Part shown: one piece after another, positions 53,740 through 57,737 of the stretch
Layout of the letters: each line of letters starts with the position of its first letter
Numbering within the stretch: position 1 is the first letter of the stretch
NCBI GenBank assembly: GCA_029262895.1
Contig: JAJCYM010000066.1
Location: 1 to 64,000, forward strand
Length of the DNA: 64,000 nucleotides
Direction: 5' to 3'
From: Roseivirga sp.
Lineage (GTDB): Bacteria; Bacteroidota; Bacteroidia; Cytophagales; Cyclobacteriaceae
Translations under genes and position numbers: made by a program
Notes under the pieces: model-generated
Told to the model about the DNA's origin: nothing
Databases searched by the model: none
What the model saw: only the letters and a program-made list of their open reading frames with translations

Positions 53740-55018
53740 CGTTGAGGCTTTTTAGTCTTATAGAAACGGCATTCTTATGGCCATCCAACCGTTCAGCAGC
53801 TGCCATGGCTTCGATAACGGGACCAATTTTTAACAACCCACTTTGTGTAATTTCCTGATAGGTGATTTTCTTGACAAAACTGTCCAGTGACACTCCACTG
53901 TATGCCTTGGCGAAACCATTGGTTGGCAAGGTGTGATTGGTGCCAGAAGCATAGTCACCGGCAGATTCAGGTGTGTAATTCCCTATAAATACAGAACCAG
54001 CATTGGTAATCTGGTCGGCAATTTCCCATGGTGCTTTGACGGAAAGAATCAGGTGCTCAGGGGCATACTCATTGAGTAAATCAACAGCCTCTTCTATGTT
54101 CAATACCAGAGCCACACTATTTTCCAGTGCGCTTTGAGCAATCTCCCTTCGTGTAAGCTGAGACAGTTGGATTTGTATTTCGGTTCGAACTGCCGATAAA
54201 ATCTTTTCGCTGCTTGCCACCAATAACACTTGACTATCCACTCCATGCTCGGCTTGTGACAGCAGGTCTGCCGCAACAAATTCGGGCATTGCCGTCTCAT
54301 CCGCATAAACCGCCACTTCCGAAGGTCCGGCAGGCATATCTATTGCCACACCAAATCTGGAGGCCAGTTGTTTAGCCATCGTAACATATTGATTTCCAGG
54401 GCCAAAAATCTTGTCAACCCTTGATATGCTCTCGGTACCAAAGCACATTGCGGCAATAGCCTGTGCACCTCCAACCTTAAAAACACGTTTGATTCCGACT
54501 AAATCTGCCGTGTATAAAATAGCAGGATTGACACTACCACTTTTATCCGGAGGAGTACACAAAATCACCTCTTTACAACCCGAAATACCAGCAGGAACCC
54601 CCAACATTAACACTGTAGAAAATAAGGGGGCAGTGCCTCCAGGAATATATAAACCCACTTTTTCTATTGGGACTGATCTACGATAACAGTTTACTCCCGG
54701 CATGGTCTCAACCTTCAGATCACTTGTCTTCTGAGCCTTGTGAAACTGCTCAATATTGGATTTTGCAACCTGAATGGCAGCCTTCAGCTCGGTACTGACC
54801 AACTGTTTGGCTGCTTCAATTTCTCTCTCCGTTACTTCAAAAGATTTCAGTCTCACCCCATCAAATCGCTCCGTAAATTCAAACAAAGCCTGATCTCCCT
54901 TGCTCTTTACTCTATCCATGATAAGCCCTGTCCTAGATTCTATTTCTTCGAAATTCTGAACCGGTCTGGCTAGTATTGCACCCCATTCTTTTCGAGGTGG
55001 ATTAATGAACGTTTTCAT
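53732..55018 (-). CDS. hisD: histidinol dehydrogenase
   Basis: 428 residues, the usual length. The zinc-dependent NAD enzyme shows VGLYIPGGTAPLFSTVLMLGVPA, SGCKEVILCTPP, VFKVGGAQAIAAMCFGTES, KIFGPGNQYVTMAKQ, AGPSEVAVYADE, SQAEHGVDSQ and EHLIL. It oxidises histidinol to histidine in two steps. Its start overlaps the hisG stop by 4 nt. Confidence 0.96.
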   Translation of the reverse strand: MKTFINPPRKEWGAILARPVQNFEEIESRTGLIMDRVKSKGDQALFEFTERFDGVRLKSFEVTEREIEAAKQLVSTELKAAIQVAKSNIEQFHKAQKTSDLKVETMPGVNCYRRSVPIEKVGLYIPGGTAPLFSTVLMLGVPAGISGCKEVILCTPPDKSGSVNPAILYTADLVGIKRVFKVGGAQAIAAMCFGTESISRVDKIFGPGNQYVTMAKQLASRFGVAIDMPAGPSEVAVYADETAMPEFVAADLLSQAEHGVDSQVLLVASSEKILSAVRTEIQIQLSQLTRREIAQSALENSVALVLNIEEAVDLLNEYAPEHLILSVKAPWEIADQITNAGSVFIGNYTPESAGDYASGTNHTLPTNGFAKAYSGVSLDSFVKKITYQEITQSGLLKIGPVIEAMAAAERLDGHKNAVSIRLKSLNDV

Positions 55019-55875
55019 ACAATCATCTTTTCTATTGGTACTACCAGAATGCCCTCCGCTCCCGCTTCCCGAAGATTTTCGATTACTCCCCAGAAATCAT
55101 CTTCGTTAATCACAGAGTGGATTGAAGACCAGTTTTCCTGGGCAAGGGGCAACACCGTAGGGCTGCGCATGCCAGGGAGAATATCAATGATCTTATCAAT
55201 GGCCTCATTAGGCGCATTGAGCAAAATATACTTGCTGCTACGGGCTGCCTGAACAGCGTCAATCCTGAAAAGCAGCCTCTTCAAAATGGTTCTCTTTTCA
55301 TCTGACAGTTGCTTGTTGGCAATCAAAACCGCCTCAGACCTAAAAATTACTTCCACTTCTTTCAGCCCATTGCTCATCAGTGTACTGCCTGAACTCACAA
55401 TGTCGCATATGCCATAGGCAAGGCCAATGCTTGGAGCAATTTCCACAGATCCACTGATCTCATGGATATCAGCTTCAACATTATTGGCGGCCAGGAAATC
55501 TCCAAGAATTTTGGGATAGGAAGTAGCGAGGCGCTTGCCCTGAAAGTCTCCCAACCCTGAATAGGGTTCGTTTTTGTCTATTGCCAGAGATAATCGGCAC
55601 TTCGAAAAACCAAGTTTTTGAGTCCAATCAACGGCTTTATCTTTTTCTTCTGCCTCGTTGGCACCCACAATGCCTATATCAGCAATGCCATCCTGTACAT
55701 AACCGGGTATATCATCGTCCCGAAGGAATAGAAATTCAAGTGGAAAGTTAGTAGCAACCGACTTCAGCTTACCGGTACCATTGCTGAATTTAATGCCACA
55801 CTCTTTAATGAGCTTTAATGATTCATCGCTGAGTCTTCCACTTTTTTGCACAGCAATGCGTAATATATTGTCCAT
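55015..55875 (-). CDS. hisG: ATP phosphoribosyltransferase, long form
   Basis: 286 residues, so it includes the C-terminal regulatory (histidine-binding) domain and does not need HisZ. Signatures are VQKSGRLSDESLKLIKECGI, LRDDDIPGYVQDGIADIGIVGAN, and SGSVEIAPSIGLAYGICDIVSSGSTL. The C-terminal domain ends with LREAGAEGILVVPIEKMIV. It condenses ATP and PRPP, the first and feedback-regulated step of histidine synthesis. The gene is preceded by a His-rich leader peptide and terminator, so its operon is probably controlled by attenuation as well as by feedback. Confidence 0.96.
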   Translation of the reverse strand: MDNILRIAVQKSGRLSDESLKLIKECGIKFSNGTGKLKSVATNFPLEFLFLRDDDIPGYVQDGIADIGIVGANEAEEKDKAVDWTQKLGFSKCRLSLAIDKNEPYSGLGDFQGKRLATSYPKILGDFLAANNVEADIHEISGSVEIAPSIGLAYGICDIVSSGSTLMSNGLKEVEVIFRSEAVLIANKQLSDEKRTILKRLLFRIDAVQAARSSKYILLNAPNEAIDKIIDILPGMRSPTVLPLAQENWSSIHSVINEDDFWGVIENLREAGAEGILVVPIEKMIV

Positions 55876-55917
55876 AGATTTACTCTACTTTTATTAGAAT
55901 TGGAAAGGATTTGCAAG

Positions 55918-55937
55918 AAAAACTGGCTTATCGCCAG
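55918..55937 (-). terminator. attenuator terminator of the his operon
   Basis: On the minus strand CTGGC-GATAA-GCCAG is followed by TTTTTC (the T5 run is 55922-55918). It lies after the leader peptide stop and 43 bp before hisG. The stem is short (5 bp, GC-rich). It fits a conditional terminator. Confidence 0.65.
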
Positions 55938-55954
55938 GACGGAATAATTATGTG

Positions 55955-55973
55955 CATCTCTCTAAGAGAGATG
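55955..55973 (-). promoter_or_regulatory. hairpin in his leader: CATCTCTC/GAGAGATG
   Basis: A perfect 8-bp stem with 3-nt loop spans the leader peptide stop. Two further competing stems exist: ATGCAC (55999-55994) with GTGCAT (55988-55983), and GTGCATC (55988-55982) with GATGCAC (55958-55952). Mutually exclusive 1:2 and 2:3 type pairings are as expected for an attenuator. Confidence 0.6.
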
Positions 55974-56033
55974 ATGGAAATGATGCACGTGATGTGCATT
56001 GCCAGGGTAGTATGTGTTGATCAATTCGATCAT
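55962..56033 (-). CDS. histidine operon leader peptide
   Basis: 23 codons plus stop TAG (ATG at 56033-56031). Near its end come A-H-H-V-H-H-F-H-H-L, that is six histidine codons out of nine in a row, followed by Leu-Ser-stop. In enterobacterial his operons a leader with consecutive His codons makes ribosome stalling sense charged tRNA-His. Placement between a promoter box and a terminator just before hisG fits this role. No family database is needed, and chance is unlikely. The -7 box TATATTTGC ends 7 nt before the ATG, implying a very short 5' leader. Confidence 0.85.
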   Translation of the reverse strand: MIELINTYYPGNAHHVHHFHHLS

Positions 56034-56039
56034 GAGGTC

Positions 56040-56070
56040 GCAAATATACAGGGGCTGTTAGTTTAAACAA
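56040..56070 (-). promoter_or_regulatory. his operon promoter (-33 TTG / -7 TATATTTGC)
   Basis: On the minus strand TTG (56070-56068), a 19-bp spacer, then TATATTTGC (56048-56040), an exact match to TAnnTTTG plus C. Spacing and sequence fit the Bacteroidota sigma-A consensus. The box lies 6-7 nt upstream of the leader peptide ATG. Confidence 0.75.
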
Positions 56071-56348: not shown

Positions 56349-57737
56349 GTGTCCAAACACAACTCATTGTCAAGAACTCCTCTTAAAAGTAAAATCCGAA
56401 CCTTCCTGGTTTGGTACGGTGCCACAGTATTGGGTTTTATACTTATTATACTGGTTGTCCTTCTGACCGATAAGGACATTCAAAGTGAACGAATCCTGAA
56501 CATCTTTTGGCTATCAATCAAAGGACTTTTGAGTGCTACTTCATTTTACCTTGTATCCCTAATTCCTTACATCATTTTTGTTCTCCTCAAAAGTCTCTTT
56601 AAGGATTTCAAGAACAGAGGTTGGCCCGGGTTACTCAAGGGAGTCTCTCTCAAAACGATCACCCCGGTCATATTTATTTGGGGGTCTCTGCAGTTGATTG
56701 ATGAGTACCGCTTCGGAGAACAATTTGAATACGAATGGGATCGTAGCGTAGAAAACCGTTCTGACAGCATACGCAATAGTTTTGCGCTGGATCAGAAACA
56801 ACGGGGTATGCATGTGATGGACTTGGAGTCAGATACCACTGATTTAGAAATTCTCAAAGTCAATAATGTGGAATGGCTCACCTTTGTTCCTTTTATCTCT
56901 CAGCAAGACTATGATACGCCAAGCCTGTCAGGCAACTCTGGACCTCGTGGCATAAAACGCAGATTAAGGCGATGGCAAAACACTATAGAGCTGGCAGACA
57001 AGTATGGTTTTAAGGTTATGGTCAAGCCCCATATTTGGCTCAATAATCGGCCTGGGAATGTTTGGCGATCGAGTATCCGAATGACCAATGAAGAAGATTG
57101 GCAAAAATGGTTTAACCAATACAGCACATTCATATTGGCCCATGCACGAATTGCTGAAACCGTGGGTGCCGAGCAATTTTGTGTGGGTACTGAGTTGAAC
57201 GTTTCTGTAATGGAAAAACCTGAGCTATGGTTAGAATTAATCAAGGAAGTCAGGAAGGTTTATTCAGGTAAGCTTACCTATGCAGCCAACTGGGACGATG
57301 ACCTTGAGGACATTCAACTATGGGATGCCCTCGATTTTATTGGCATTCAGGCCTACTTCCCTGTGGCCAAACGTTCAGCACCCGATTTGGAGGAACTTGA
57401 AGCTGGTTGGAAAAGTCATTATCCATTGTTGGAGGCCCTAAATCAAAAATTCAACAAGCCCATTCTATTTACCGAAATTGGATATAAAACTACACGCAAT
57501 GCCGGAAAAGAACCCTGGGAGTGGGATACTTTCAATCATCGGTTTTACAAACGCATCTCTCACAAAACACAAGCCCTATGCTACGAGGCCTTCTTTAATA
57601 CCGTCTGGCAACAACCCTGGTTTGCCGGTGCACATGTTTGGGAATGGCAAGCTCGAGGGACAAGTGATGGCAACAACAACTCGTTTACATTGGAAGGCAA
57701 ACCTGCATTGAATGTGCTGGCCAAGGGATATCGATAA
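56349..57737 (+). CDS. membrane-anchored GH113-like glycoside hydrolase (TIM barrel)
   Basis: 462 residues, start GTG at 56349. Three helices near residues 18-38, 55-80 and 101-117. A TIM barrel from about 153 follows: RGMHVMDLESDTTDLEILKVNNVEWLTFVPF, GFKVMVKPHIWL, AEQFCVGTELN with acid/base Glu282, and ILFTEIGYK with nucleophile Glu376. The C-terminus AGAHVWEWQARG closes the barrel. It resembles GH113 (beta-mannanase clan). Likely cell-associated glycan hydrolysis; the exact linkage is unknown. No polysaccharide utilisation locus genes are adjacent. Confidence 0.82.
   Translation: MSKHNSLSRTPLKSKIRTFLVWYGATVLGFILIILVVLLTDKDIQSERILNIFWLSIKGLLSATSFYLVSLIPYIIFVLLKSLFKDFKNRGWPGLLKGVSLKTITPVIFIWGSLQLIDEYRFGEQFEYEWDRSVENRSDSIRNSFALDQKQRGMHVMDLESDTTDLEILKVNNVEWLTFVPFISQQDYDTPSLSGNSGPRGIKRRLRRWQNTIELADKYGFKVMVKPHIWLNNRPGNVWRSSIRMTNEEDWQKWFNQYSTFILAHARIAETVGAEQFCVGTELNVSVMEKPELWLELIKEVRKVYSGKLTYAANWDDDLEDIQLWDALDFIGIQAYFPVAKRSAPDLEELEAGWKSHYPLLEALNQKFNKPILFTEIGYKTTRNAGKEPWEWDTFNHRFYKRISHKTQALCYEAFFNTVWQQPWFAGAHVWEWQARGTSDGNNNSFTLEGKPALNVLAKGYR

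Follow-up and report, generated by a model that had tools for sequence, protein, structure and literature searches.

Transcription attenuation by leader peptides is taught from the Proteobacteria and rests on tight coupling between the ribosome and RNA polymerase. In the enterobacterial his leader (Rfam His_leader; E. coli hisL), as is general knowledge, a small ORF directly upstream of hisG contains a string of His codons and is followed by hairpins; the E. coli leader is also known for a hairpin-stabilised polymerase pause. Leader-peptide control can be Rho dependent, as at tnaC, which senses tryptophan through the nascent peptide. Outside the Proteobacteria, a comparative study by Vitreschak and colleagues in 2004 reportedly listed candidate attenuators in Bacteroidetes/Chlorobi. 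An excerpt of a 2010 paper describes leader-peptide systems as known only in Proteobacteria and Actinobacteria, ermC aside, and adds the Firmicutes (PMC2965389). Excerpts of later papers include the Bacteroidetes in a distance-based survey of leader genes (PMC4833913) and report Bacteroides short ORFs reminiscent of leader peptides (PMC7366714). In a further excerpt, a structured and conserved 5' element of hisG in Flavobacterium psychrophilum and other Flavobacteriaceae had no Rfam hit and was left unexplained, and there were clues for leader-peptide attenuation before amino-acid operons (PMC9723704). This element shares its phylum and gene with the locus studied here, and the section describing it gives no leader sequence or mechanism. 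The word "leader" is absent from the text searched of a paper on the his genes of this superphylum (PMC8305728).

The locus lies in the window, by which we mean the whole stretch of 64,000 nucleotides that was analysed. Its features are given below; type II is the layout class of its leader, defined further on.

55015..55875, minus strand: hisG, first gene of hisG-hisD-hisC-hisB (TIGR00070 match)
Downstream of hisG, minus strand: the rest of the operon, hisD, hisC and a bifunctional hisB (NCBIfam TIGR00069, TIGR01141 and NF003937)
56041..56070, minus strand: Bacteroidota-type promoter, from the sequence, TTG (56070-56068), 19 nt and TATATTTG (56048-56041)
ATG 56033 to TAG 55962, minus strand: leader ORF of 23 codons, from the sequence, MIELINTYYPGNAHHVHHFHHLS, stop TAG
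55971..55994, minus strand: six His codons, from the sequence, in the pattern HH-V-HH-F-HH
55955..55973, minus strand: hairpin A, CATCTCTC-TTA-GAGAGATG, around the stop codon and part of the predicted minimum-energy fold
55938..55954, minus strand: spacer, with only a trace of the CAUAUCGCCC/ACAUAACCCC block on comparison with type II members
55923..55937, minus strand: hairpin SL-B, CTGGC-GATAA-GCCAG, from the fold and from compensatory changes in the genus
55915..55922, minus strand: TTTTTCTT tract, a possible intrinsic terminator tail, from T counts

The 23-codon minus-strand ORF with six His codons that the original prediction had placed between a promoter and hisG was confirmed at 56033-55962, 86 nt from leader stop to hisG. 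Like the enterobacterial leader, it clusters His codons in a small reading frame directly ahead of hisG and is followed by hairpins. Unlike in E. coli hisL, a hairpin encloses the stop, no conserved U-tract terminator or antiterminator was found, and there would be almost no 5' UTR, judging by the position of the promoter. The window gave no covariance-model match to Rfam His_leader at the gathering score, only a chance match to MicA (E 8.8). Divergent to the leader lies a gene at 56349-57737 on the plus strand, encoding 462 aa, with a marginal NCBIfam match to GTA_megatron (E 0.0007, residues 256-358).

We searched for hisG in 60 genomes of the same family (57 matches) and in 295 genomes of the class (127 matches) and analysed 179 upstream regions; matches at contig edges or in fragments were not included (G236, G212, G347 and one piece each of G153, G072 and G116). 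At 137 of the 179 loci, the 250 nt upstream of hisG contained an ORF that starts with ATG and has 4 or more His among 12 codons, compared with 0 of 179 reverse strands, 0 of 176 farther-upstream regions and 10 of 1,790 shuffled sequences; with at least 5 His in 12 codons, the shuffles gave 0 of 1,790. At a threshold of at least 3 His within 300 nt, a leader was present at 159 of 179 loci (54/57 in the same family and 105/122 in the others), and no leader was found by this measure at the other 20. A short leader ORF rich in operon-cognate codons, as expected of an attenuator, is present before hisG, and its translation is predicted. The recurrence of the leader fits histidine-sensing leader-peptide regulation across the class.

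When 158 leaders were classified (L058 was left out), 99 were type I, 25 were type II, which is the layout of the window, and 34 were neither; the window's own family was split into 17, 20 and 17, respectively. To count as type I, a leader needed at least 3 His and, 10 nt or more beyond the stop, a hairpin with T behind it and a folding energy of -12 kcal/mol or better. The type II set of 25 loci was picked by eye from the leader ends and the sequence that follows, and L021 was excluded from the type II counts. The order of elements in type II is HHxHH, two codons and the stop; a hairpin enclosing that stop; often a CAUAUCGCCC-like block; and a second hairpin, usually with no clear U tract. 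In 22 of the 25 type II loci, a set chosen partly by leader ends, the distance from the last His to the stop is 3 codons; in 60 of the 99 type I leaders it is 6 to 9 codons. The type I layout looks classical: the leader end was more complementary to the left arm of the terminator of its own genome than to those of other genomes, with a difference of up to -1.75 kcal/mol (Z about -5). In 27/99 type I leaders the two could form 6 or more Watson-Crick pairs, compared with 9.3% of cross-genome pairs and 7% when a control segment was used, without correction for relatedness. Among the leaders classed as neither (L163 to L172 and others) is a group of the LHLHHHH type for which no strong terminator was found; further leader variants may be present among the 34.

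A sequence pattern for type II was found 69 times, spread over 68 of 295 same-family genomes at about one copy per genome, compared with 2 hits for the reversed pattern; it also occurred in 61 stretches of named genomes, including Algoriphagus, Pontibacter, Echinicola, Rufibacter, Belliella, Indibacter and Cecembia. The pattern lay no more than 400 nt upstream of hisG in 89 of 91 loci examined (30 of the 69 hits plus the 61 stretches); of the two exceptions, L182 had no hisG and L221 was a contig end. It gave 0 hits in 17 genomes of the window's genus, where the arms of hairpin A differ. Algoriphagus and Pontibacter belong to the Cytophagales (NCBI taxonomy), and, as far as pattern searches go, the type II layout is common to many members of this order. 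In the literature searched, mostly outside subscription papers, we found no description of it.

The type II leader often keeps its length: in 48 of 101 sequences the last His is preceded by 24 codons. Across 48 leaders of one length, mean identity (self-pairs included) was 22% over codons 2 to 20 and 87% over codons 21 to 24. This agrees with the expectation that the His codons would be conserved and their flanks variable, although most of these leaders came from a pattern that itself fixes the His codons. The low identity of the N-terminal residues also bears on whether the product could be a functional small peptide, for instance a metal-binding one, as its His-rich sequence would allow. Such a peptide would not account for the recurrent position before hisG, nor for the same layout with Trp codons before trpE-like genes (below), and we regard this explanation as very improbable.

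Next, we looked at the promoter, taking the TTG/TAnnTTTG box to be the Bacteroidota consensus. In the 45 nt that precede the leader ATG, a TAnnTTTG box was present at 23 of 25 type II loci and at 68 of 99 type I loci, compared with 14 of 615 control windows, and the length of the spacer to TTG peaked at 19 nt (34/91). The gap between the box and the leader ATG is 7 nt in the window, and its median is 8 nt in type II and 17 nt in type I. Because the box sits this close to the ATG, the type II transcript probably starts only a few bases 5' of the leader.

Two further observations concern the sequences around start codons. The start-codon region of type II leaders is often complementary to the codons that lead into HH, AUGAACAG to CUGUUCAU (for example, in L003, L005 and L010); in L010, AUGAAAA can pair with UUUUCAU. 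This stem reached a Z of -4.1 in a table that also has values up to +6.4, and relatedness is a possible cause; the pairing could block late initiation. In addition, a near-constant AAACGTATATTGC block lies directly 5' of the hisG ATG in the related loci L003, L004, L007, L008, L010 and L011.

The leader RNA of the window folded better than its shuffles (z = -3.4; 2 of 200 shuffles were as good), and its predicted fold includes hairpin A, an element that the original prediction did not single out. A stem of at least 6 pairs spanning the stop was found in 21 of 25 type II loci, compared with 26 of 125 shuffles; the corresponding counts were 41/99 for type I (shuffles 145/495) and 12/34 for the leaders classed as neither (shuffles 43/170). 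In a wider set of 103 type II sequences, made up of the 25 picked by eye, 62 from patterns containing hairpin A and 16 same-genus loci with CATCTC, hairpin A forms in 102, a count that is partly by construction, since the search pattern behind most of these sequences already included the hairpin. For this reason, the comparison with shuffles in the 25 loci picked by eye is the fairer test. All 18 same-genus sequences picked out by CATCTC also had a stem spanning the stop, and both arms change together between groups (CUCUC:GAGAG in the window's genus and UUCCUC:GAGGAA in other type II leaders). The leader of L284, MTVAHFYAHHFHHLS, is accompanied by hairpin A as well. RNAalifold gave no structure on a mixed type II alignment, and in one of two clades hairpin A was absent from its consensus.

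We rejected hairpin A as an intrinsic terminator, as neither the window nor its genus has a U tract behind it. It is the sole element found whose state would depend on the position of the ribosome, as read from the sequence. Taken together, the leader and the hairpin around its stop codon very probably form a gauge of the cellular histidine supply. The right arm of hairpin A often reads UAAGGAGG, which resembles a Shine-Dalgarno sequence, at the stop codon (for example, in L003). Bacteroidota are said to use Shine-Dalgarno sequences rarely, and ribosomes of this class hardly use them; UAAGGAGG may be merely part of the stem.

After hairpin A, many type II members have an A/U-rich spacer and then a CAUAUCGCCC or ACAUAACCCC block, whose invariant positions were seen in a set of 19 sequences. 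The strict motif was present in 55 of 103 sequences; a looser motif lay 4 to 11 nt from hairpin A (7 to 9 nt in 72 of 86) and was not found in 17 of 103. SL-B follows, supported by compensatory changes within one genus, where its stems read CTGGC/GCCAG, CCGGCAG/CTGCCGG and GTGGCC/GGTCGC. In two other clades, consensus stems were found with double changes at only 1 and 2 pairs. The best hairpin after the type II pattern averaged -9.2 kcal/mol, compared with -5.7 for shuffles, and a post-leader hairpin of -8 kcal/mol or better was found in 70% of type II sequences and 21% of shuffles.

The U tract that would make SL-B an intrinsic terminator is another matter. A hairpin followed by T5 is present in the window 24 nt after the leader stop, where the original prediction had put a terminator, and the window's own copy can be described as a weak terminator. 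Terminator-like sites numbered 13 in 13.5 kb, with 12.6 expected from shuffles; because they are no commoner than chance, SL-B alone is weak evidence. Among 18 same-genus sequences, the first 8 nt beyond the second hairpin included 5 or more T in 6, and the window alone had an uninterrupted T5. In type II overall, the 8 nt behind the best hairpin included 5 or more T in 16 of 101 sequences, so that no conserved intrinsic terminator was found; type I, which had been selected for a terminator, gave 77 of 99 by the same count.

These results bear on classical three-way attenuation, in which SL-B with T5 would be the terminator and the antiterminator would come from GTGCATC/GATGCAC or from CCTGGC paired with GCCAG. 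All of the named stems exist in the window, and the complementarity between leader end and terminator in type I, given above, speaks for switches of this kind in the class. Nevertheless, GTGCATC/GATGCAC was found in only 2 of 18 same-genus sequences (GCAC/GTGC in 7 of 18), and CCTGGC, proposed as the alternative partner of GCCAG, does not occur in the leader of L271, the closest relative. Moreover, SL-B has only 5 bp (-7.5 kcal/mol), and neither hairpin A nor SL-B was found to have a co-evolving partner in type II that could serve as an antiterminator. We therefore consider the classical switch an unlikely description of this locus. What stands of the original prediction is the His-rich leader with its own promoter before hisG; it was right on the sensor and is only partly supported on the switch.

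The type II leaders' lack of a conserved U tract would also be consistent with a post-transcriptional role, in which leader translation and the two hairpins set the translation of hisG or the decay of its mRNA and there is no premature termination. We think this quite unlikely: SL-B ends 47 nt upstream of hisG in the window, and a candidate interaction between hairpin A and the start of hisG was rejected, as it gave a weak signal (Z -3.3) and no consistent helix.

We also looked into whether these genomes use canonical attenuators before other operons. The genome of the window carries a Trp leader, MRNYTSHNAWWWHVTELR, with WWW, upstream of a trpE-like gene (L316, G000:C90), 8 nt after a TAnnTTTG box. 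Like the his leader, it has a run of cognate codons, a box near the ATG and a biosynthetic gene after it; it differs in being followed by a hairpin of -18.9 kcal/mol with a long U tract. Among the best 30 trpE-like loci of 60 same-family genomes (TIGR00564 matches, none above the cut-off), 26 had an ORF with at least 2 clustered Trp, mostly WWW, compared with 1 on the reverse strand. The remaining 4 showed a Trp ORF on a second look, with only two Trp in L311 and L315. A hairpin of -8 kcal/mol or better and a U tract followed 26 of 26 Trp leaders examined. Ile/Leu/Val leaders before ilvB were seen at 3 of 30 loci, none of them convincing; 2 loci were unreadable, and ilvB is perhaps not the first gene.

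A general loss of terminators was rejected as well. Canonical terminators were present at 20 of 74 gene ends in type II genomes and at 13 of 54 in type I genomes, about as often in the one as in the other, compared with 3-4% for shuffles. For the window's genus, the rejection rests on the trp leader, because gene ends in the window and its same-genus relative L294 gave only 2 of 21 (shuffles 2/63).

On balance, we lean towards reading the locus as a histidyl-tRNA-sensing leader-peptide attenuator of hisGDCB whose layout is shared by many Cytophagales, an interpretation drawn from comparisons of genomes. With transcription starting a few bases 5' of the ATG, the first ribosome would load at once. 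When charged His-tRNA is scarce, we infer that it would stall on HHxHH, 3 to 7 codons before the stop, with its footprint over the left arm of hairpin A; hairpin A would be blocked and polymerase would continue into hisG. When histidine is plentiful, the ribosome would reach the stop and leave, and hairpin A would form. It would then hold polymerase about 9 to 12 nt downstream, just before SL-B, and termination would follow either by SL-B with its short U tract, which is possible in the window, or by Rho acting on the C-rich, G-poor RNA beyond it.

For type II as a whole, pausing plus Rho is our leading guess for how transcription is stopped. By analogy with known pause hairpins, the distance from hairpin A to the motif would suit a hairpin-stabilised polymerase pause. 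A rho gene is present. For the 103 type II sequences, the C/G ratio of the interval was 1.68 and that of the RNA after SL-B was 2.2; from stop to hisG in the 25 type II loci it was 1.39, compared with 1.28 for ordinary 60-nt upstream regions of type II genomes, so the excess is modest. As at tnaC, the position of the ribosome near the leader stop would decide termination in the absence of an intrinsic terminator; unlike at tnaC, where the nascent peptide senses tryptophan, the His codons would be the sensor here, and the role of Rho is putative.

More tentatively, and with less than even confidence, we propose that type II is a distinct mode of attenuation: a nearly leaderless His leader, in many cases of constant length, in which the hairpin at the stop codon is the only element responding to the ribosome and which would act through hairpin-stabilised pausing and Rho, with no canonical terminator or antiterminator, in genomes that keep a canonical trp attenuator. 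That His and Trp leaders are found across a class that hardly uses Shine-Dalgarno sequences implies that coupling between ribosome and polymerase, or something like it, works there too. One genome holds both a textbook-looking trp version and a his version with no conserved terminator, and it therefore offers a side-by-side comparison of how a stalled ribosome may control transcription through other means.
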